In this document: in pieces, positions 326 to 49,413 of the stretch
Numbering within the stretch: position 1 is the stretch's first letter
How the letters are laid out: the number at the start of each line of letters is the position of its first letter
NCBI GenBank assembly: GCA_956465555.1
Contig: OY101115.1
Location: 620,001-684,000, forward strand
Direction of reading: 5' to 3'
Length of the DNA stretch: 64,000 nucleotides
DNA from: Nitzschia sp. pyKryTriq1
Taxonomy: Eukaryota; Bacillariophyta; Bacillariophyceae; Bacillariales; Bacillariaceae
Notes under the pieces: model-generated
Databases searched by the model: none
Told to the model about the DNA's origin: nothing
Seen by the model: only the letters and a program-made list of their open reading frames with translations
Program-made: the position numbers and the translations under genes

Positions 326-952
326 ATGTATCGCTCTCTCTACCTTTATATTGTACTTTTGACATGCTGGACGGCCCTCCAAGTCGAATCGGTTTTGACA
401 GGAAAGATCGTGAGCTGCCCAGCGTGAACCTTAAACCGACACAGGACATTGAAGTCGTTCTTGAAGGAGGGAGAAGCGGAGGAATACGAGGGAATTACGA
501 TTGAATGGATTCGAGGTTAGTGTCGCGAAGAACTTCTTGGGGGCTTTCTTTGGTGGTTGTCCGTGTCTGCCTTGGCTCGTCTCACTTTTGTTCTTCTGAA
601 TATTCGTGTATTTCTCACAGGGAAGCAGGCAGTTTTGACGATTTACGAGGATGGAGTGGAGAAGGAGCAAGTGCATTTGTATTCTTTAAAGACGAAAGAT
701 GAAATGCACAACAAATTTCAGGAGAAAGGGTTTAGAAAAAAGTCTCAAACAGCGTTAGTTGAAGACAAAAGGTTACGGGTGGTGGAAAGTCAACTTGCCA
801 TACAGGAGCAATTCCAGCCAATGTACTCGAAAGTGTTTATGATGTACGGAGTTATTGGATTTGTAGCGGTCGCATTTATGGTTATGATTCAATTGAATGG
901 AAAGAAACAACGGCGGGCCTTGCAGGCCAGAAACATACCTGTGAGAGTCTAG
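326..952 (+). CDS. Membrane-anchored selenoprotein M/Sep15-type redox protein
   Basis: Exons 326-515 and 621-952 are joined across a 105-nt GT-AG intron (516-620), giving 173 residues if the in-frame TGA at 425-427 is read as selenocysteine (U34). The start at 326 gives a hydrophobic signal peptide (about residues 1-22). The motif C-P-A-U is followed by TLNRHRTLKSFLKEG, then the beta-strand and Asp-Gly pattern of the SelM/Sep15 thioredoxin-like fold (EWIRGKQAVLTIYEDG) and a helix ending in EKGF. Family members are ER-lumen oxidoreductases with CGGU (SelM) or CGU (Sep15). Unlike the soluble animal proteins, this one has a C-terminal membrane segment (about 134-152) and a basic tail, so a lumenal domain with a type I anchor is inferred. 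A SECIS hairpin lies 225 nt past the stop. Without Sec decoding the product would end at 33 residues. Confidence 0.85.
425..427 (+). other. In-frame TGA, predicted selenocysteine codon
   Basis: TGA sits in the reading frame between signal peptide and redox domain, as the fourth residue of C-P-A-U. This is exactly where SelM proteins carry Sec in CxxU. The frame on both sides matches the family, so the TGA is an insertion codon rather than the end of the gene. Confidence 0.85.
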
Positions 953-38323: not shown

Positions 38324-40663
38324 CTACCGACGTCGACGGCGAGTCGTAGACGTACCTGCTCCAATCTCTCGGAAGAGTTCATCAGCACGACGCTGCTCCG
38401 CTTCCAACTCCCGTTGGTTTTCTTGCAGCCGCTGTTGTTGTTCCGATTCCCTGGCTTGAACGGGTTTTAGAGCAATGCGTTCGCAGGCGTCCACCTTTCG
38501 TGGGACAATATTCTTTCGAAAGGACTTGAAATTCGGACCATTGGTACGACGAGGACGGCGTCCAAGTGCATCTCGTGACCCATTGGTGTTGCTACTACCT
38601 TCGGTGGTGGTAGGTGATACAATGGCGACTACCTGTGCCGATTGGGCTGGAGGCATCAAGTGTTCCCCCATAATTTCAGCATTCATCTTGGAGGCTTTCT
38701 TTCGCCATGCTTTTCTCACGGCATTATCCCTCGGAGCGATAGTATACCAGCCAGATGCGTCTGGCTTCCCGAGACACTGCTGAATATTTGAGTCGCTAGC
38801 GTCAGTCGAAGAACTTGTGGCATGGTTGCTGCGACGAGGCTTCTTTGGGGGGTCTTGTGGTGACACGTCTTCGTCGTCCTCCATGCTTACATCATGTTCG
38901 ACTGGGAAATCTTCATTTTCTTGGTCATCTTGAGCATCTGCTTCCTTTTTACCAGTCTCTTCGTCTTCAGGAACAGGCGATGCTTCCTGGTGTACTGTTT
39001 CTGGTGCTTGTTCCACATATGGTATCTCTCGACGTTGTCGTTTTTGGTGGGTTGGGAATGGAACTTCAGTCATGGAACAGGAATCGACTTGACTGCTACT
39101 GTTGCTGTCGTCGCCCGGGCGTTTCCGGGAACCCGTTGCGATGATTCCAGAATTGGTACTTTTAGCACTAGTCCTCGTCGCTGTGGAGAGCTCTTCTTGA
39201 GTCTGCAACTTATTAGCGTCTCGTTCTTTCGAGGGCGCGGGGGCTTCATCCTCGGTGTCACTGCTGCTATCCGACGTACCACCAGCAGGCGGAATCTGGG
39301 GGGCGCCGCTCGGTGGGGTCCTTCTACTACCGTTGCTCGTAGTAGATGGCAAGGGAATCGCATTGCCCTTGGTATCGACAAGCTTTGGTTCTTGGCGTGA
39401 GACAGCCTTGGCCCAGGCTTGTTGTGTGAAGGAAAATATGCCATCTTTCGCTGTAAGTTTCGAAAATAGTCGTTTTCTCGAGGAAAGGACCAGGAACACT
39501 GGGTTCTTGTCGGCGAGAGCCTCGAGGGATCCTTCAACTTTCTCCATCCTTGCCTTTTCATTGGATTCCTCGTAGAGTGGAACGAGTCTTCCTCCCGAGA
39601 AGCGAATGACGGGATCCAGTTCGGTCTCTTCCAACGTGAAGACGACGTAGCCTGCCATGAGTTTGGGGTCAGCGGCCTTGGTCCTGAGTACGTTCATGCT
39701 GCCATCCTGTGTAAAGGGTGCCCTATACTGTTCGGGCGAGGGCAGAGGATCTTTTGAGGACTTGTGATCCATCAAAACTTGCAAATAGTCGGGTGTAACG
39801 ATGGGTATTCCTCGACAACATGCCGCCAGTGGCTTGGCAGATCCCGAGGCCTCCGGTGTGATCAAATGGGTGGTGTTCTCGGTAATCATAGCCGTTTCCA
39901 ACGCTCCAATCTGGTGCAGTTTCTTGTTCTTCCATTCCGTTTGAATTGGCGTGGGAACCCTTGAGAATACCACCGAAAAGGGAACCCATGTGACTTTGAG
40001 GGTCGATCCGTTTAGCCCAGCTTGCATCATGATGGATAGTTTCTTCGTGGTGACGTCCAGAACCCGAGACTGCCCGACATCGACTCTGACTATCTGAGGC
40101 TGCTGCTGCTCCTTTTCCTTCTTCCAAAAGTCTTTCATCGAAGGTGGGAGTTCCATCTCGGGCACAGCGGTTCCATCACCTAGGGCGGCCAGCTGCTGTG
40201 GGACTCGTTGCGATGCTTGCGAAATCATGCCACCGGTCCCTTCATCATCGGTTTCCTCCTCATCATCGTCGTCTCCGGCGGCCTTTTGTTGATTCTCTCC
40301 CACATCATCATCACCATCATCACGAGACGGCGATGATGATTCGGCAATAAAAGTACCCGCCTTGCCCACATTTTCCAGTACCAAACACATTTGAAATGGA
40401 TTGGCTTGGCACGCCCGACGTTCCGCGTCATTGCGAGGCTCTTTCACGCAGCGGACGGTGAAATGCTGGCGGCTCACACTCTTGTCGCTGGGAAACGTGA
40501 CGTCTCCCGCCTTGCGGCCCAGTGAGAATAGAACATTCTTCGCTCCATGCTCTGCATTATCATTATTTTGTGGCTCTTGTCTACCACCAAAGAAATTCAA
40601 GACGGTGCTAGGTGTGCTACAATTTGGCGACGAGACCTCGTACGATTCGACGCGGATCCACAT
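38324..40663 (-). CDS. NBS1: Nibrin-like DNA-repair protein (MRN complex)
   Basis: A single exon of 779 residues from 40663. The N-terminus MWIRVE leads into an FHA domain (about 1-120) with SLGRKAGDV and SVSRQHFTV, the phosphopeptide-binding core. A BRCT domain (about 210-310) has ITENTTHLITPEA and GIPIVTPDYLQVLM; a second, weaker BRCT follows (about 315-430). A long acidic, Ser-rich disordered region leads to the short motif NFKSFRKN (about 711), matching the MRE11-binding NFKKFKK of nibrin. Near the end RADELFREIG resembles the ATM-binding acidic-FxF/Y-type box of human NBN. Together these identify the MRN subunit that recruits MRE11-RAD50 and ATM to double-strand breaks. The frame extends to a Met at 40738, but human nibrin also starts with MW just before the FHA fold. 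Confidence 0.88.
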   Translation of the reverse strand: MWIRVESYEVSSPNCSTPSTVLNFFGGRQEPQNNDNAEHGAKNVLFSLGRKAGDVTFPSDKSVSRQHFTVRCVKEPRNDAERRACQANPFQMCLVLENVGKAGTFIAESSSPSRDDGDDDVGENQQKAAGDDDDEEETDDEGTGGMISQASQRVPQQLAALGDGTAVPEMELPPSMKDFWKKEKEQQQPQIVRVDVGQSRVLDVTTKKLSIMMQAGLNGSTLKVTWVPFSVVFSRVPTPIQTEWKNKKLHQIGALETAMITENTTHLITPEASGSAKPLAACCRGIPIVTPDYLQVLMDHKSSKDPLPSPEQYRAPFTQDGSMNVLRTKAADPKLMAGYVVFTLEETELDPVIRFSGGRLVPLYEESNEKARMEKVEGSLEALADKNPVFLVLSSRKRLFSKLTAKDGIFSFTQQAWAKAVSRQEPKLVDTKGNAIPLPSTTSNGSRRTPPSGAPQIPPAGGTSDSSSDTEDEAPAPSKERDANKLQTQEELSTATRTSAKSTNSGIIATGSRKRPGDDSNSSSQVDSCSMTEVPFPTHQKRQRREIPYVEQAPETVHQEASPVPEDEETGKKEADAQDDQENEDFPVEHDVSMEDDEDVSPQDPPKKPRRSNHATSSSTDASDSNIQQCLGKPDASGWYTIAPRDNAVRKAWRKKASKMNAEIMGEHLMPPAQSAQVVAIVSPTTTEGSSNTNGSRDALGRRPRRTNGPNFKSFRKNIVPRKVDACERIALKPVQARESEQQQRLQENQRELEAEQRRADELFREIGAGTSTTRRRRR

Positions 40664-41711: not shown

Positions 41712-42608
41712 GATATTATGTTTTAAAGGATCACTCGTAATTGTCTGATGAAGAAAATCTTAACCTAAGGATGAAGGTGTGTGTTGGCATTGATGGAGGG
41801 AGGGAGGTCGTTAGCTACGAGTTACGATCTATTATCGTCTGTTGTCATTATTATTTTTCGACGACGATGACGCGCGGGCTTTTGTTGGAACTCTCCCTCT
41901 CGCAACTTCAACTTTCAAAAATGCGACTACTTCGATTCACAATGGACGATCTTCCTCCCATTGGCGCGGGCGCCAACAAACCCTCAACTCTCTCGGACAC
42001 TGTAGACCGATGGTATAGTACTTGGTAGTGGGATAATTCGTTGGCCTATGCCCCTGATCGATTTCGATTTGCGTAGCAAGATCGTCCTCTCTCGGGGATA
42101 CCCTTGGGTACATCTCCTTGCCTCAAGGTGTAAAGGGATGGCGGGCGGGTTTTTAAAGCTAATTAAACTCGTCGACTCGATGATCTTATGAGATCCATCG
42201 GTCGTCTCTCTTCGGTATCGGCTCGAAATCTTGTGTTGTTCGTTCGACTTCTTGTCTGTCCTTCGTTCGTTGGGGGTCTCCAGGATGATGGGTGCTTTCT
42301 CCATCTCTCTTCTCGCACTTGTCCCTACACTACATACTTACCGCTACCAGTGATGGTAATGTACCGGCAAACTATACTTTGTACCTTTTTTCTGTAGAGC
42401 TGGCTATAGAGAGATGAGATAAGAAGTACGAGTAAAGAGTTTCTAATACAGATCACGAAGGCAGCTTACAATATCATTTATTATAAAAAAGGTACGACGT
42501 CGTATCCATAGGCAGATCTATGAATTCGCACGTTCAGAATTGCGACGTATCACTCTGGTGTAGAACGAAAACTTTGTGGCTCTCTTGTAGAAAGAATCAA
42601 TTAGTCTA
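41712..42608. other. Intergenic, no gene seen
   Basis: About 900 bp without a convincing frame. Short frames at 41741-42028 and 41984-42304 lack any recognisable motif and have poor composition. Confidence 0.5.
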
Positions 42609-43735
42609 CTAGAGTTCCTCAGTCGTGACTTTTTTGGCGGTGATCGTCGGTGGCGTAACCTTCGTCTTTACTACCGCTTTCATCAAATGGATACCCCCCT
42701 TGCGGACCGCCTCAATAGCTTCATCTCGCACCTTGGCTGCCTCCTCGTACTTTGCTTGTAGTGCATCTAACTCGGCATCATATTTTTCTTTTGCTTCCTT
42801 TAGCTTTGCTTCCTCCACCTTTACCATAGCCATCAACTCTTGTTTCGACTTGGCCAGATATTGTTCTATCAACTCCCGGGTAACAGCGTCACATCGATCC
42901 AAATCGGTCGGTGTGCACTGGGGCACTAAATTCTCTTTGGCAAATTCAGACAATTCTTGGTACGTTCGACCACCTTCGTACTCTTCCATGCTATTGGGGT
43001 GGCCATACATCAGCGTTGGAAACGATTTGATGTCCATGTATTCACAAAAGATTTTGCCTAGCTTCGATGAGCAATCCACTTCTGCCACCAGACCTACTTC
43101 ATTACCATCCCATTCTTCTGCTAACTTTTCCCCTATAACAAAACCCCCGAAGAGAGATATTTTATTCCACAATGTTAGCTTTTTTGAGTTTGCGATCGCT
43201 GATATGCAGGAATTCTGGGAAAGAGGACGAAACTTACAATCCTGCGACCAAGACGTCAAAGATTAGTAAGGGCCATGTTTCGTGGTACAGCATAATCATA
43301 ACACAAGTCGTCGAGTGTAAGGACTTACCGGTGCCTGTATTAATACGGATATAACGAGAGAATGGAACATGTTGTTGAACGAGAGAAATGGAACATGTTG
43401 TTGTAAGATGTCGAAATGACACATTTTTACTTCATCGGAGAACAAACATTGCGGTCATTGGCTCACCAAACGCTTGCAGAATGCACACCACGGCGCGAAA
43501 AACCTGTCAAAGATAAAGTAAAGAAGTATTAGTAAGACACAAATTGAACTCCGAATGAAGAATCGAGAGACATCTCACGATGTGTTCGGTACAATGCGAC
43601 GACGTACTTGATGAAGACAGTCTTTCCGCTCGTTTGTTCGTCGAACGTTCGGCTATTCAAACTCAAAACGTCATAGGCACCGATCTTGGGAACAAAAGCC
43701 AAGAAGGCAACACAAAATGAAAACAACCTCATCAT
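42609..43735 (-). CDS. Short protein disulfide isomerase with CAFC site and two micro-exons
   Basis: The best model has five exons: 43735-43608, 43503-43467, 43334-43329 (6 nt, Ala-Pro), 43241-43238 (4 nt) and 43132-42609. All four introns (104, 132, 87 and 105 nt) have GT-AG ends with strong donors (GTACGT, GTGAGC, GTAAGT, GTAAGT). The spliced product has 232 residues and reads VFIKFFAPWCAFCKRLAPDW and on to EKLAEEW, an ideal thioredoxin-fold PDI sequence. Without the micro-exons the core APDW-EKL segment cannot be assembled. A signal peptide covers residues 1-20, the CxxC site is CAFC (about 49-52), the thioredoxin fold ends near 130 and a charged coiled tail follows. The C-terminus TTEEL is a poor match to KDEL. 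It is a paralogue of the two PDIs on the plus strand. Confidence 0.88.
43353..43403 (+). repeat. 25-26-bp tandem pair inside a PDI intron
   Basis: Two adjacent copies of AACGAGAGAATGGAACATG plus TTGTTG, the second with one extra A, lie in the intron between exon 2 and the 6-nt exon of the minus-strand PDI gene. Confidence 0.8.
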
Positions 43736-45168
43736 GATAATATATGAAGCAGACTTTCGAATCAACAAAGTGTTTGTCGACAAGTACGGTATCCATTGTG
43801 GAGAGAGCCGAGCGAGAGAGCCGCATACATCCCACCAGCAAAAGAGCCGCTCTAGTAGAAGAGCCCCCTGCGTGCAACTGACGCGGTCCGACAACTGCCT
43901 CCAGCAGAAAAGCAGCGACAAGCGACTAAAGAAACGAAAACAAAGCGGCCACCTTATGTACTGTTGAAATACTAAGGTAATGAGCCTAGTATTTGGGCGA
44001 ATAGTCTAGTGCCTCGTCGGCGCGGGGTGGCCCACGCGGACCACGGACCACGTGGGCCGCGCGCAATTTACCCGAATTATCATGTAATATTTCCAATGCT
44101 CAACTTTGGAGTCGTCCGAAGCTGCAAGGATACCATTGCCAGACAAATGTTATGCATCATTCAGCATCATTACTTTATGAAGAAATATATTTTGTTTTCA
44201 AAAGCTGTGTTTGATGAATTATTTGATGTCCTCTTCGTGTTTTTCATTGCAGAGCGACCGGGTTGCTTTGAATCCAGTGGGTCAGCTACCACGTAGAGAA
44301 TGTACCACATCCTACGTGTGGGCCGCACACAACAATTTTTGTGGTCGAACCAAAAATGCATCATGGCCATCCTCCGGATGCACTGCAATAGACAATAAAC
44401 TAAAGCCAAACAAAATTACTGCTACAAAGTTATCTCTTTATTATCAGTTGATATCATGTGATGATTGGATTCATTGTTGAATGCTTCGTTTCGGACGAAT
44501 TGTCCAGATTTCTAGTCACAAACCCTCTTGTGGTGACATTTTACACGTTACGTGCGTTAGTTCGTGTAGTCCAGTTGGTCAAAAAAGGGTCGTCTACTCC
44601 TACCTCTACCAAGATAGCTTTCCAAAAAACAAACTATTCTAAATCAAAAGACTTGTTTCAACAACTTTATTATTAATAATTTAGGGGAGTGATAGTGGTG
44701 TCTTAGTTTGAATGAGTTTTGATAACTACGGAAGCCTTTCAAATTTGTTGACGACAAGCCACGTGGCGTTCAAATAAACCGCGGCGCGCATGCAGTCGTC
44801 GGCAATCAACGGTCATAATTATTAGAGGTTCATCATTCTTCCTCAGGCTTCTTTGGGAGTGACCGGCTCGCGTGATGAGGAAAATTTCCTCATCACGAAA
44901 TTATTTATTAACTGTTACGGTAAGTGTACCGGTAGGTTCTACCGGTATGATATCGTTATCCTTTGGTTCTATCTCGACCGCGCGTGAAACCCAAGCCCCC
45001 GGCCGATCGTGCAACCATCATCATTCATCCATGTCTCCTTGCTTGATTCATCATCCATACCTGGTACCGTACTTGTACAGTACCGGTAATCCATCGTCCA
45101 CGGTATCGAGAATATCGAGCTTCACGTCATATTTTTTGGACCATTGGCAACACAACAAGCTATCGACC
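43736..45168. other. 1.4-kb intergenic region between PDI genes
   Basis: No gene is seen. GGCCCACG and CGTGGGCC arms (about 44030-44060) can form a hairpin, and CACGTAG...CTACGTG (about 44291-44319) another. Both are followed by similar GTGGGCCGC words, hinting at a small degenerate element. A perfect palindrome lies at 44871-44897. The right end is the promoter side of the Cys-PDI gene. Confidence 0.45.
44871..44897. repeat. Perfect 13-bp-arm palindrome
   Basis: CGTGATGAGGAAA and its exact reverse complement TTTCCTCATCACG are separated by one base. It lies 272 bp upstream of the Cys-PDI start. It could be a regulatory dimer site, a hairpin or chance. Confidence 0.9.
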
Positions 45169-45952
45169 ATGAAAATCTTTTCTGTTGCTCTCCTTGGCCT
45201 TTTGGCCGGAACTAATGCCATCGAGCTGACCCCCGACAATTGGGACGATGCCGTCGCTGGAAAGACAGTCTTCATCAAATTCTTCGCCCCTTGGTGTGGA
45301 CATTGGTGAGTGGTGTTGTGGTTTGCTTTGCGCGCGTTTGAAGGATCGCCACTTTGTCTCTGAAACCTTTGGTTGTTTTTTTCTCTTGATCTTGCCCCCG
45401 ATCTCATCGCCTCTTTCCACTGTGTTTTTTCGCAGTAAAAAGTTGAAGCCCGATTGGGACAAGCTAATGGACGCATTCGCCGACTCGCCCTCCGGACTTG
45501 TCGCCGATGTGGACTGCACTACTGAGGGCAAGGCACTCTGCGATGCCAATGGTGTGCGAGGATATCCTACTCTGAAGTGGGGAGATCCGTCGGCCTTGGA
45601 AGACTACAAGGGTGGACGCGACCTCGACTCATTGAAGAAATTTGCCGAGGAAAACCTCAAGCCCATCTGCTCGCCCTCCAACATTGACCTTTGCGACGCT
45701 GAGAAGAAGGCCGAGATCGAGAAGTTCATGGCTATGTCCGCTGATGACCTTGATGCCGCTATCTCCGACAAGGAGAAGAAGATGGAAGAAGCCGAAGAGG
45801 CCTTCAAGACTGGCGTCGAGGAACTTCAAGAGAAGTACCAGAGTCTGATGACCGCCAAGGACGAGACTCTTGAGGAAATCAAGAACTCTGGACTTGGACT
45901 CATGAAGGCCGTCAAGGCCTCCAAGGGCAAGTCTAGCAAGGACGAGCTTTAA
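45169..45952 (+). CDS. Short protein disulfide isomerase, CGHC, KDEL
   Basis: Exons 45169-45305 and 45436-45952 are joined across a 130-nt intron (GTGAGT...CGCAG) to give 217 residues. A signal peptide (about 1-18, ending TNA) precedes one thioredoxin domain with FFAPWCGHCKKLKPDW (active-site Cys43 and Cys46; the intron splits the second Cys codon). KGGRDLDSLKKFAEENL closes the fold. A charged helical tail of about 80 residues ends in KDEL, so the protein stays in the ER lumen, where it should oxidise or rearrange disulfides. It has one catalytic domain instead of the two of classical PDI. It is the cysteine counterpart of the gene at 46876. Confidence 0.95.
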
Positions 45953-46875
45953 AGTTGCTGCGATACCAAGCAAGAATATAAACGTCCCCTGTCGTCACCG
46001 CTCATCCATCTTCCTCTGCTGGTTGCTGCGTACTACTAATCTTACTTTAAATTTCTAAACCAACTTGCTGTGATAAAGACAAACGCGAGACACAAACTGA
46101 CTTGCACATCAAAGCAGAGTTTGTACGTTGAGTACTGGTGTTTATCTAGCTAGGTAGAGAGTAGACTACGAGTATGCTGTATCCGTCACAAACGGCACAC
46201 AAGTCAGACGCAAGGAGATGGACAAGATGATGCCTGCCGATCATACTTGTACCTGGTAATAACTGGTTATCGTTACTAATTATTGCTAGAGTACAGTACT
46301 TCGACCGTCGCACACGACCGTTTGCCGATCCAGATCTTCCTGCTGCTTCGCTTCCTGTTCGGATTCGATTGTCGCCCAAAACAGATGGCGCTGGCTTTCG
46401 GCAATTTCGTTGGCACGCGGGCCGGTCAGTTCCCCAGCAAAGCCAAACGTCTACCACCGGTACTGTACCGGTACCAGGGACTGTACCGTACTCGTACCGT
46501 TACGAATGCACACACTTGTACTCGTACAGTACAAGTACTCGTACCGGTATGTAACCAGATCAAGTACTGTGCAGGTACATACCGCTCGGTACGTTCTTGC
46601 ACGGGTACAAACATTACGAACGGGTTCTGGGGGGGGGGGGGGTCATTTTTTTCGACCCGGGCGGGGGACGTACTTAGAATGCTGCTTTTGTGGTTGGCCT
46701 TCGTTCGTCGTTGGTACCAACGACGTAGAAATCTACGGTAAAAGCGATCGAAATAGATCGTGCGACGGTGTTCTGCCGGCAATGCGAGCGACCCCCCGCT
46801 CGATCGGTTGAACTCGAAGTCATCTCACCTCGAAGAATCTGTTGTCATTCTCACCAGAAACAACATCTTGTGACC
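45953..46875. other. Intergenic between tandem PDI genes
   Basis: No gene is seen. The sequence is dense in GTAC/CCGG words (46455-46560) and holds a run of 14 G (46629-46642). No SECIS-like fold is seen after the Cys-PDI stop. Confidence 0.5.
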
Positions 46876-47685
46876 ATGAAAACCTTTACCGTTGCCCTGC
46901 TTGGCCTTTTGGCCGGAACTAACGCTCTCGAGCTGACTCCCGAAACTTGGGACGATGCCGTCGCTGGAAAGACCGTCTTCATTAAATTCCTCGCCCCTTG
47001 GTGAGGTCACTGGTGAGTTATTTTCTTGCGCTTGACGAACCTCGGTTGGTTCTTTCGGGACATTTTTGGAAGAAATCGTCGGAAGGTCCCCACGGGAGAT
47101 GGATGACTTGGTTCTCTTGATCTTGACCGCCAATCTCATTTCTCCTTCCATTGTCGGTTTCATCGTAGTAAAAAAATGAAGCCTGATTGGGACAAGCTAA
47201 TGGACGCATTCGCTGACTCCCCCTCCGCACTCATCGCCGATGTGGACTGCACTACCGAGGGCAAGGCACTCTGCGATGCCAACGGTATTCGAGGATACCC
47301 CACCATCAAGTGGGGAGATCCGTCGGCCTTGGAAGACTACAAGGGTGGACGCGACTACGACTCGTTGAAGAAATTCGCCGAGGAAAACCTAAAGCCCATC
47401 TGCTCGCCCTCCAACATTGACCTTTGCGACGCTGAGAAGAAGGCCGAGATCGAGAAGTTCATGGCTATGTCCGCCGCTGAACTTGATTCCGCCATCTCCG
47501 AAAAGGAGAAGAAGATGGAAGAAGCCGAAGAGGCCTTCAAGAATGGTGTCTCGGAACTTCAAGAGAAGTACCAGAGTCTGATGACCGCCAAGGACGAGAC
47601 TCTTGAGGAAATCAAGAACTCTGGACTTGGACTCATGAAGGCCGTCAAGGCCTCCAAGGGCAAGTCTAGCAAGGACGAGCTGTAA
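46876..47685 (+). CDS. Selenocysteine-containing protein disulfide isomerase (UGHC), KDEL
   Basis: Exons 46876-47012 and 47169-47685 (intron 156 nt, GTGAGT...CGTAG) have the same lengths and phase as the Cys-PDI gene 1.7 kb upstream. The first active-site codon, TGT in that gene, is TGA here (47002-47004), giving APW-U-GHC-KKMKPDW with U43. The rest is intact to the terminal KDEL: 217 residues with signal peptide, one thioredoxin domain and charged helical tail. Changes from the paralogue are few and conservative (Leu to Ile, Val to Ile, Leu to Tyr), and many codon changes are silent, so the protein appears to be under selection rather than decaying. A SECIS-like hairpin lies 158 nt past the stop. 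Sec PDIs are known from some algae such as Ostreococcus and Emiliania. A nonsense mutation is the alternative. Confidence 0.82.
47002..47004 (+). other. In-frame TGA, predicted selenocysteine codon of PDI
   Basis: TGA replaces the codon for the first, nucleophilic cysteine of the CGHC motif. The paralogue at 45169 has TGT at the matching place. The reading frame continues normally for 174 further codons across the intron. Confidence 0.82.
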
Positions 47686-47843
47686 CTTTGCTCCGGGTCT
47701 ACATTTTGCGTTGTTGTATGAGCTGTAAAGTATTCGCTTGTGCGTTGCGTGTTTGTTTGGCGAAAAACCGATGGGGTGAATGGTGAAGTGTTGGCGACGG
47801 CGAACACTTCCGGGCTGTAGTCCGTGGTTATATTATTGCAGGA

Positions 47844-47908
47844 ATGACGTTTCTAGAATTGTCACAAATGCTTTGTTTTTGTGTCAATCTTGCGACTGAG
47901 AAAGTGAT
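47844..47908 (+). promoter_or_regulatory. Candidate SECIS element of the Sec-PDI gene
   Basis: The element starts GGAATGACG (ATGA at 47844-47847), the same core as in the SelM-like gene, and ends TGAT (47905-47908). TTTCTAG pairs with CT-AGAAA around one bulged G. AA follows directly, then TTGTCACAAA pairs with TTTTGTGTCAA with one mismatch. Unpaired bases on the 3' side make it less regular than the first SECIS, so the fold is probable rather than certain. Confidence 0.65.
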
Positions 47909-48593
47909 CCAGTCTCTGTGCAAGCCGGTTAGCTTCATTGCTGGCGAAAACGGAGAACGATTGCATTGCAATACCTTTTCTTGTGGACTACAGTCTTTCA
48001 TTTATTCCCTTCGATTTGAAACCATTCATTACGCGACGTGAAGAGTGGTACGGAGGTTCACTGTACACAAGCTTAATTACGAATAGTAACTATTATTTAT
48101 TTGATATTTTATGATTCAGATGCCGAGCTTAATTTTGGTACACTGCTGCCACAGTTCTACCAGTATGATTTTCGACGACAACAGAACTCTGACGCACCTT
48201 TTGATTGCCTGAACGTACTTGGGCACAGTACTAGAGTAGAAGTTGACTCCTCATGCTAACTTTAAAAGTCCACGACGCTCCAAAATGTTTCATAAAAAAA
48301 TGGTAGCCGTTTTACGGGAATCGTGGTACTGTAGTATGCACTTTACGTACAGTAGTCTAGTCTAATTACGTTGTCATTAACATTATTTCAATCATTCCTT
48401 GACAAAGTAGAGGAGGATCCCCTGTTGCAGAGAGTTTACTTGTGTACCCATGCAATAGTACAACTGCAATAACTCTAGCTAGTACTGTACTGGTAGTCTA
48501 CTACTATTTCTCCAGAAAAAGTAAATATCAACGCCAACATATTTCAATATTTATAAAGCTAAAGTTTATCCGCTTTTGGTACTGTACTGAGCG
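47909..48593. other. Intergenic, no gene seen
   Basis: The gap between the Sec-PDI SECIS and tRNA-Arg is AT-rich with no convincing coding frame. GTAC words occur near 48320-48350 and 48480-48500. Confidence 0.5.
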
Positions 48594-48665
48594 GCCGATG
48601 TGGCGCAATGGTAGCGCGTTTGCCTCCTAAGCAAAAGGTTGTGCGTTCGAATCGCATCTTCGGTA
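48594..48665 (+). tRNA. trnR-CCU: tRNA-Arg (CCU)
   Basis: The D-arm is GCGC-AATGGTA-GCGC, the anticodon loop C-T-CCT-A-A sits within TTTGC/GCAAA, and the T-arm is GTGCG-TTCGAAT-CGCAT. The acceptor stem GCCGATG/CTTCGGT has one G-T pair and one T-T mismatch. The anticodon CCT reads AGG. There is no intron. Confidence 0.9.
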
Positions 48666-49413
48666 GAAGTCATCAGAACTTTTACATCCGTACTGTAGTT
48701 CTCGGTCGGTCATGGTGTGGCTTCCTTTTGTTTTACAAGAATGATCCTCTAGTCCACAACATTGCTGCTACCGTTTCTTGTTTGGGTTTAGTATGAGTAT
48801 GGATATATATATCTTCGAGTTTGCATACTGAAAGCAACAACAGATTGCTTTCTCTACAGTACCGTATCTCCTCTCTCAACTACTACCAGGTACTCTAGCT
48901 CTACTACCCGAGTACCACCTGTGCGCACTTGTATCATGCCCCAGTTTGAAAACACGGGCTTCAGACCCACCACTCTAATCATCATCATCATCAATCATCA
49001 TCACGAAATAATTTGGCGAGGTCCCGTATTTGAGCAGTTCGAGCTCTCGAAGAATGATGTGTCGTCGATCTGGCTGCTGGCTGAGATGCCGCCCCGCCCC
49101 CGGCTGGTTCGTTTGGGGCCAACCGTTGAGCGGGCCAATAGCATCTCGTGTAGAAATCCTACGTGGCCATACTGCGAGCCACATGGAGAATCTCCTCGAA
49201 CCACATCGTCGAAGAGCGAGACGGATGGCCCAAACGTTTCAGTTTTCGTCGGTCGTCTTGCACCACACCTCACACGACTACAGTACAGTAAAGTTAAGCC
49301 TGTACGACGCTTTTCGCGAGGTTCACAATCAAAAAAGTGGAAATAGAGTTGTTGTTTGTTGTTGTTTGTGAAACACGCATCAATATATCACCCACAATTA
49401 CTATTAGTATATT
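48666..49413. other. Intergenic, promoter side of a ubiquitin protease
   Basis: No gene is seen. Short ATC repeats occur at about 48980-49005. Frames on both strands here are overlapping and without motifs. Confidence 0.5.

Follow-up and report, generated by a model that had tools for sequence, protein, structure and literature searches.

A probable tandem pair of selenocysteine (UGHC) and cysteine (CGHC) oxidoreductase genes in the diatom Nitzschia sp. pyKryTriq1

In a 64,000-nt stretch of the genome of Nitzschia sp. pyKryTriq1 (the window; C1:620001-684000, where C1 is contig OY101115.1, of a 40.65-Mb assembly in 20 contigs), two neighboring genes encode nearly the same small protein, one with TGT and the other with an in-frame TGA at the first active-site cysteine. 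Very probably, to judge from the sequence, the TGA gene (copy 2) encodes a UGHC selenoenzyme and its neighbor (copy 1) a CGHC enzyme, the two forming a tandem of single-thioredoxin-domain, KDEL-terminated oxidoreductases of the endoplasmic reticulum (ER). The selenocysteine (Sec) reading is well supported because the genome carries the Sec machinery, the frame past the TGA is conserved, a second UGHC protein disulfide isomerase (PDI) is encoded elsewhere, and a candidate selenocysteine insertion sequence (SECIS) lies downstream. The UGA at codon 43 of copy 2 would be read as Sec by machinery that the cell itself encodes, directed by the SECIS in the 3' untranslated region (UTR), and the Sec would substitute the N-terminal, nucleophilic active-site Cys. 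Such a form may be a faster and harder-to-inactivate thiol/disulfide exchanger, while copy 1 could function without selenium, so that the work might be split by selenium supply. Both proteins would be expected to reside in the ER.

Structure and divergence of the pair

The two genes have identical exon lengths (137 + 517 nt, 217 codons) in the same phase, and their common intron position splits the codon of the second active-site Cys (TG/T). They differ at 50 nucleotides, distributed 10/7/33 over codon positions 1/2/3, and the differences are nonsynonymous in 19 of 218 codons, these being C43 versus TGA and 18 replacements. Flanking the TGA, the residues W, G, H, and C are unchanged, with GGA/GGT and CAT/CAC differing silently. 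Each protein begins with a signal-like stretch, judged by eye, and ends in KDEL, a retention signal that predicts ER location from sequence. Between them lies a single a-type thioredoxin domain of the PDI superfamily with CxxC in copy 1 and, if the TGA is read as Sec, UxxC in copy 2; Pfam PF00085 (thioredoxin) matches both (E 3e-21 for copy 1, exons joined, and 5.6e-21 for copy 2), and the closest solved relatives by sequence are TXNDC5 and PDI. The TGA aligns with the redox Cys of relatives. The copies are 92% identical, the next matches in the genome reaching at most 41% over comparable stretches. The original prediction had described two adjacent genes of equal exon lengths and phase encoding near-identical KDEL proteins, with TGT opposed to TGA at the first active-site cysteine and the TGA copy otherwise intact, and all of this was borne out: the frame is conserved past the TGA and copy 2 has no further lesion. 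Coordinates are collected in Table 1.

Table 1. Positions of the gene pair, its associated elements, and related genes (window coordinates unless a contig is named; C1, C2, C5, and C7 are contigs of the assembly).
Feature	Position	Strand	Remarks
Copy 1 (Cys) exon 1	45169..45305	+	signal-like N-terminus, thioredoxin domain up to CGH and TG of Cys46
Cys43 codon of copy 1	45295-45297	+	TGT
Copy 1 intron	45306..45435	+	GTGAGT...GCAG, 130 nt
Copy 1 exon 2	45436..45952	+	remaining thioredoxin domain, tail, KDEL, TAA
Copy 2 (probable Sec) exon 1	46876..47012	+	last codons TGG TGA GGT CAC TG
Possible cryptic 5' splice site	47001..47006	+	GTGAGG; in frame, 12 nt upstream of the assumed donor
In-frame TGA of copy 2, codon 43 (UGHC)	47002..47004	+	C2 PDI has TGA at the equivalent position
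Copy 2 intron	47013..47168	+	GTGAGT...GTAG, 156 nt
Copy 2 exon 2	47169..47685	+	KDEL, TAA; purifying selection
SECIS candidate of copy 2	47842..47900	+	GAATGA (core AUGA 47844-47847), imperfect 18-pair hairpin, UGAG closing
Diverged third paralogue, CAFC	42609..43732	-	exons 43608-43732, 43467-43503, 43329-43334, 43238-43241, 42609-43132
SelM (Sep15/SelM) gene	326-515 and 621-952	+	two exons; CPAU, TGA at 425-427; SECIS 1175-1228
Second UGHC PDI	C2:991726-992356		FLAPW-U-GHCKSMKPAWD; intron within the Trp codon just ahead of the TGA
CAHC family member	C5:193 kb		
CLDC family member	C5:99 kb		read by eye
CGHS family member	C1:453 kb		without resolving Cys
CGHS family member	C7:1401 kb		without resolving Cys; read by eye
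L135, intron-free CGHC relative	RFOM01000068.1 2839-3531		contig filed as a proteobacterial metagenome-assembled genome (MAG)

Selenocysteine decoding in the genome

The genome is that of a diatom, eight silicon-transporter matches being found in it (seven at E < 1e-260), and it decodes Sec. The search for Sec machinery covered tRNA-Sec, SepSecS, and SelD; it returned three tRNA-Sec genes with anticodon tca, SepSecS, and a SelD gene with an in-frame TGA of its own, at KG-U-ACKIP. Besides copy 2 there are 13 TGA-Sec candidates in the genome, one of them the second UGHC PDI. Of four GPx matches, three have a TGA at the Sec site, as do SelT, three of the five SelU/PRXL2-like matches, and two MsrA genes (15 match rows in the search), and a TGA stands at the first Cys of a UGYC thioredoxin. 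The TGA-GHC pattern occurs at 43 sites in the genome (17 for a reversed control), and the two of these that were read (C1:667001 and C2:992133) lie in PDI genes. The UGYC protein, a PDI-like thioredoxin at C5:563593-563871 (-), has no SECIS of the GAATGA/UGAN type, described below, within 300 nt of its stop.

A SECIS candidate downstream of copy 2

Strict SECIS scanners were dropped for low power and replaced by a word common to the flanks of Sec genes; those seeking an apical AA 7-16 nt past the AUGA missed four of the nine other Sec genes in the set and gave good elements at some. Of 12 Sec-gene flanks, 11, that of copy 2 among them, have the shared word GAATGA 47-258 nt past the stop used, whereas it is absent from the 923 nt downstream of copy 1. 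When the signature was defined as GAATGA followed by a hairpin closed by UGAN, it was found in 10 of 12 Sec genes with copy 2 counted (nine of the 11 others) and in none of 22 control flanks, among them that of copy 1, although the word alone occurs in 4/22. By chance it arose in 36 of 4000 shuffles of the copy 2 flank; among tiles, it fits 5 of the window's 426, genuine elements counted, and 5 of 880 from other loci. The candidate of copy 2 begins 156 nt past the stop, and the ATGA that the original prediction had placed 158 nt past it is indeed there, at 47844.

The flank of Prxl_C6 starts at an in-frame TAA that probably lies within an intron; control flanks L003 to L060 begin at the next in-frame stop past the domain match, so that intron-bearing genes may have another true stop; and control genes were those with no TGA within the domain match, their Cys status being unproven and L050 and L051 being near duplicates. 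Two later cases also carry the signature. In SelD it lies 191 nt past the stop, and in SelM there is a clean element at 1175 (GCAGGAC/GUCCUGC, AA, UGAU) together with a weaker fit at 1003. The SelM gene (Pfam Sep15_SelM, E 1.1e-9, at window 326-952) was previously unsuspected and was located through this SECIS. In all, six sites in the window fit the signature (copy 2, 1003, 1175, 39604, 7369 on the minus strand, and 2024). A SECIS of copy 2 at 47842-47900 is credible on these comparisons, its stem being among the weaker ones.

Selection past the TGA

Pairwise dN/dS (NG86) is 0.18 overall, 0.20 before the TGA, and 0.178 in codons 44-174, while codons 175-217 hold a single silent difference (dS 0.04 vs 0.28-0.32 elsewhere). 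The ratio past the TGA had been singled out as a check on the TGA copy, and at 0.18 pairwise it is not near 1. Since pairwise values cannot tell which of the copies is constrained, outgroups were brought in through a codon model, in which equal time was imposed on copies 1 and 2 and which was run on a fixed tree and on a star of outgroups. With the fixed tree, the branch omega of copy 2 was 0.16 for codons 44-174 (omega = 1 rejected, p 9e-5) and 0.05 for codons 44-124 (p 1e-6). Three other outgroup sets, with an independent relative among their members, gave 0.06-0.30 (p 0.0015 to 5e-6), the highest value being obtained with L135 as sole outgroup, where nearly all replacements fall on copy 2. 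Conversion from copy 1 would not alone yield so low a ratio, because it erases silent and replacement differences alike. Given equal time for both copies, copy 2 is under purifying selection past the TGA.

Weighing the selenocysteine reading against its alternatives

Several results weigh against the Sec reading. When equal time is not imposed, the omega of the copy 2 branch is not identifiable (2dlnL 0.16), and in a neutral simulation with half of the substitutions assigned to copy 2, replacements this few appeared in 47% of runs, so that replacement counts alone do not settle selection. The Rfam model SECIS_1 had no match at 42000-49000 or anywhere in the genome; it is uninformative on copy 2 because every other Sec gene here was missed too, and the SECIS-like element of the original prediction is backed by the organism's own signature 3' of copy 2 with the general model silent there. 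The apical-AA scanners gave copy 2 a weak score, equaled by 11 of 200 shuffles, and its hairpin, at -11.6 kcal/mol, ranks with the less stable ones examined. The signature was defined after the flank of copy 2 had been viewed alongside the others, 2 of the 11 other Sec genes are without an element, and the frames near the signature sites at 39604 and 7369 (-) showed no evident Sec gene on inspection.

An alternative in which no Sec is made would have the TGA spliced out. Any TGG TGA GGN necessarily spells the donor-like GGTGAGG, and use of the upstream donor CCTTG^GTGAGG would drop W-U-G-H in frame, leaving the TGA intronic and giving a single-cysteine protein (...LAP-C-KKMK) with no stop met; the C2 and C5a paralogues do carry an intron here, within the Trp codon, and purifying selection on exon 2 would look alike. 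However, no donor with G at +6 was seen in the paralogue and SelM models (a hand tally by eye), the codons for W, G, and H that separate the donors have been kept, changing only silently, the SECIS signature found 3' of copy 2 and not of copy 1 would be idle, and in the C2 PDI the TGA sits after the intron and cannot be skipped likewise. We regard this bypass as improbable, yet as the least improbable of the alternatives to Sec. Very small chances, about equal, are left to the other two. Copy 2 could be a decaying gene whose nonsense mutation, one of the 50 differences and a stop in ordinary decoding, leaves a 42-residue peptide, and the neutral simulation taken alone is compatible with this; such decay is at odds with the absence of a second lesion in copy 2, an omega far below 1 past the TGA under equal time, the SECIS signature, and the same TGA in a related gene. 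A sequencing or assembly error could likewise have made TGA from a TGT one base away, both genes then being CGHC, but the neighboring codons differ between the copies, so that copy 2 is no chimera of copy 1, and only the TGA copy is followed by the signature.

Relatives of the pair

This one genome contains six active sites in the family: UGHC, CGHC, CAFC, CAHC, CLDC, and CGHS. By tail similarity and in a tree built without L135, the pair joins the CAFC, CGHS (C1), CAHC, and CLDC genes, and the C2 PDI joins the C7 relative, with which TXNDC5 also groups in that tree and not in the tree with L135. In the former the active site of the C7 relative was misread as CGQS, whereas the latter has it as CGHS, and the tree with L135 does not resolve the branching around the pair, having no starred fork. 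The CAFC paralogue seems to require micro-exons of 6 nt (GCACCG, 43329-43334) and 4 nt (GATT, 43238-43241), which have good splice signs and keep the frame and the conserved AP-DW, the 4-nt exon being unusually short.

Relatives were also sought outside the genome. In other genome contigs, 250 stretches retrieved with one protein included none that was confirmed, and 196 retrieved with an alignment included one, L135, which is possibly eukaryotic contamination in the MAG. In viral contigs, none was confirmed among 121 stretches found by alignment scan and 35 found with the exon-2 protein, and none of 56 stretches with the TGA-GHC pattern was a PDI frame by eye.

In the distal parts of contigs C1 and C3, four thioredoxin or MsrA matches recur in similar order, with similar scores and a near-constant offset of 1.14-1.15 Mb, which reflects either segmental duplication on a large scale or duplicated sequence in the assembly.

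History of the pair and direction of the change

The near flanks of the two genes align no better than shuffled sequence: 138 and 143 of 200 shuffles were as good for 300 nt on the 3' side, and 123 and 161 of 200 for 150 nt on the 5' side. Longer flanks scored borderline, the alignments running over GTAC-rich stretches (3 and 11 of 200 shuffles for 5' 400 nt, 64 and 5 of 200 for 3' 900 nt), and the 3' half of the introns aligns clearly between the copies. Because codons 175-217 are almost the same in both copies, gene conversion has likely acted on the 3' end of the coding sequence. Either little flanking sequence was duplicated with the genes, or the duplication predates the apparent coding divergence with conversion refreshing the coding region; if the latter, the TGA/TGT difference and the one-sided SECIS would have been kept despite conversion. 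The pair had been proposed to be a switch caught between neighboring paralogues, and this part of the proposal is less secure: given unaligned near flanks and signs of conversion at the coding end, the two genes may be older than their coding divergence suggests, and maintained rather than mid-switch.

Within the Sec reading, the evidence on the direction of the change is almost balanced, with a slight lean toward a gain in copy 2. To a Cys ancestor, with copy 2 gaining Sec (TGT to TGA) plus a SECIS in its own 3' UTR, we give an even chance. Plain parsimony on residue 43 favors it (one change vs two or more), as does L135, the sole outside relative found, which has Cys and matches copy 1 at 9/18 and copy 2 at 4/18 of the replacements; so too does the near 3' flank of copy 2, which is without counterpart at copy 1. 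Such a gain nevertheless requires a SECIS and is thought rare, the tree with L135 has no starred fork around the pair, and without L135 the longer branch is that of copy 1. That branch length argues instead for a Sec ancestor from which copy 1 reverted TGA to TGT and lost its SECIS, a course that we place slightly below an even chance. A change from Cys to Sec is regarded as more difficult than the reverse (PMC7539508), and L39, M49, I68, and I92 are common to copy 2 and the C2 UGHC PDI, but only L39 is confined to both UGHC rows and the C2 protein matches copy 1 at 23, 24, and 86. Further points against Sec ancestry are that the subfamily members CAFC, CGHS, CAHC, and CLDC and the outside relative L135 (CGHC) have Cys, and that no SECIS trace was found near copy 1.

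A shade less probable again is a specifically recent gain, in which a Cys PDI was duplicated and its twin acquired the TGA and a SECIS-bearing 3' UTR, its core residues shifting while conversion homogenized the rest; F39L above all, and perhaps L49M, V68I, and L92I, would then have moved to the states of the other UGHC PDI. If true, a recent gain would show in detail how the difficult step from Cys to Sec is made, the unswitched twin serving as its control.

Significance and comparison with known systems

Why proteins retain Sec over Cys is a standing question that has mostly been addressed with engineered mutants. The present genes are a natural pair, 92% identical and side by side in the same genome, that probably differ at the catalytic atom and by 18 residues, and they permit direct comparison of kinetics, resistance to over-oxidation, and selenium-dependent expression. 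In the host group, a selenium requirement for growth has been reported for many species (PMC6254913, Table 1). The organism-specific SECIS signature, roughly 50-260 nt past the stop, could in addition serve to list the selenoproteome of this diatom.

The comparisons that follow rest on portions of the sources cited. EhSEP2 of the haptophyte Emiliania huxleyi, a UGHC PDI-like selenoprotein found by 75Se labeling, resembles copy 2 in having one thioredoxin domain with Sec first in UGHC, but the portion at hand describes no tandem Cys twin (PMC6254913). Thalassiosira pseudonana has two Sec-PDI homologues (PMC2375036), and algal PDIs have been divided into PDI_a to PDI_e, of which PDI_a is mostly Cys in algae (PMC7539508); like copy 2 these are diatom or algal proteins, and the corresponding portions mention no Sec/Cys PDI tandem. 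Nor was a tandem Sec/Cys PDI pair found in the titles and abstract openings surveyed, although Fig. 4a of PMC7539508, where U and C forms are marked within gene clusters, could show one. A parallel among diatoms is a recent GRX duplication in Fragilariopsis cylindrus that left a Sec form and a Cys form (PMC7539508), closest paralogues that differ as ours do; they belong to another family, and their flanks are homologous whereas the near flanks of the PDI genes are unaligned. GPx3/GPx5/GPx6 of placental mammals, tandem selenoprotein duplicates of which some are Cys (PMC3316567), share the tandem arrangement but are animal genes that derive from a Sec ancestor. For the role of the pair, a model may be found in the Sec/Cys isozyme sets of Methanococcus maripaludis, which are switched by selenium (PMC11097638), although this is an archaeon and the regulation is reported there only. 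Both PDIs with UGHC and a Sec/Cys GRX pair from a diatom have thus already been published, and the probable tandem UGHC/CGHC PDI pair is a clean new case of this sort.

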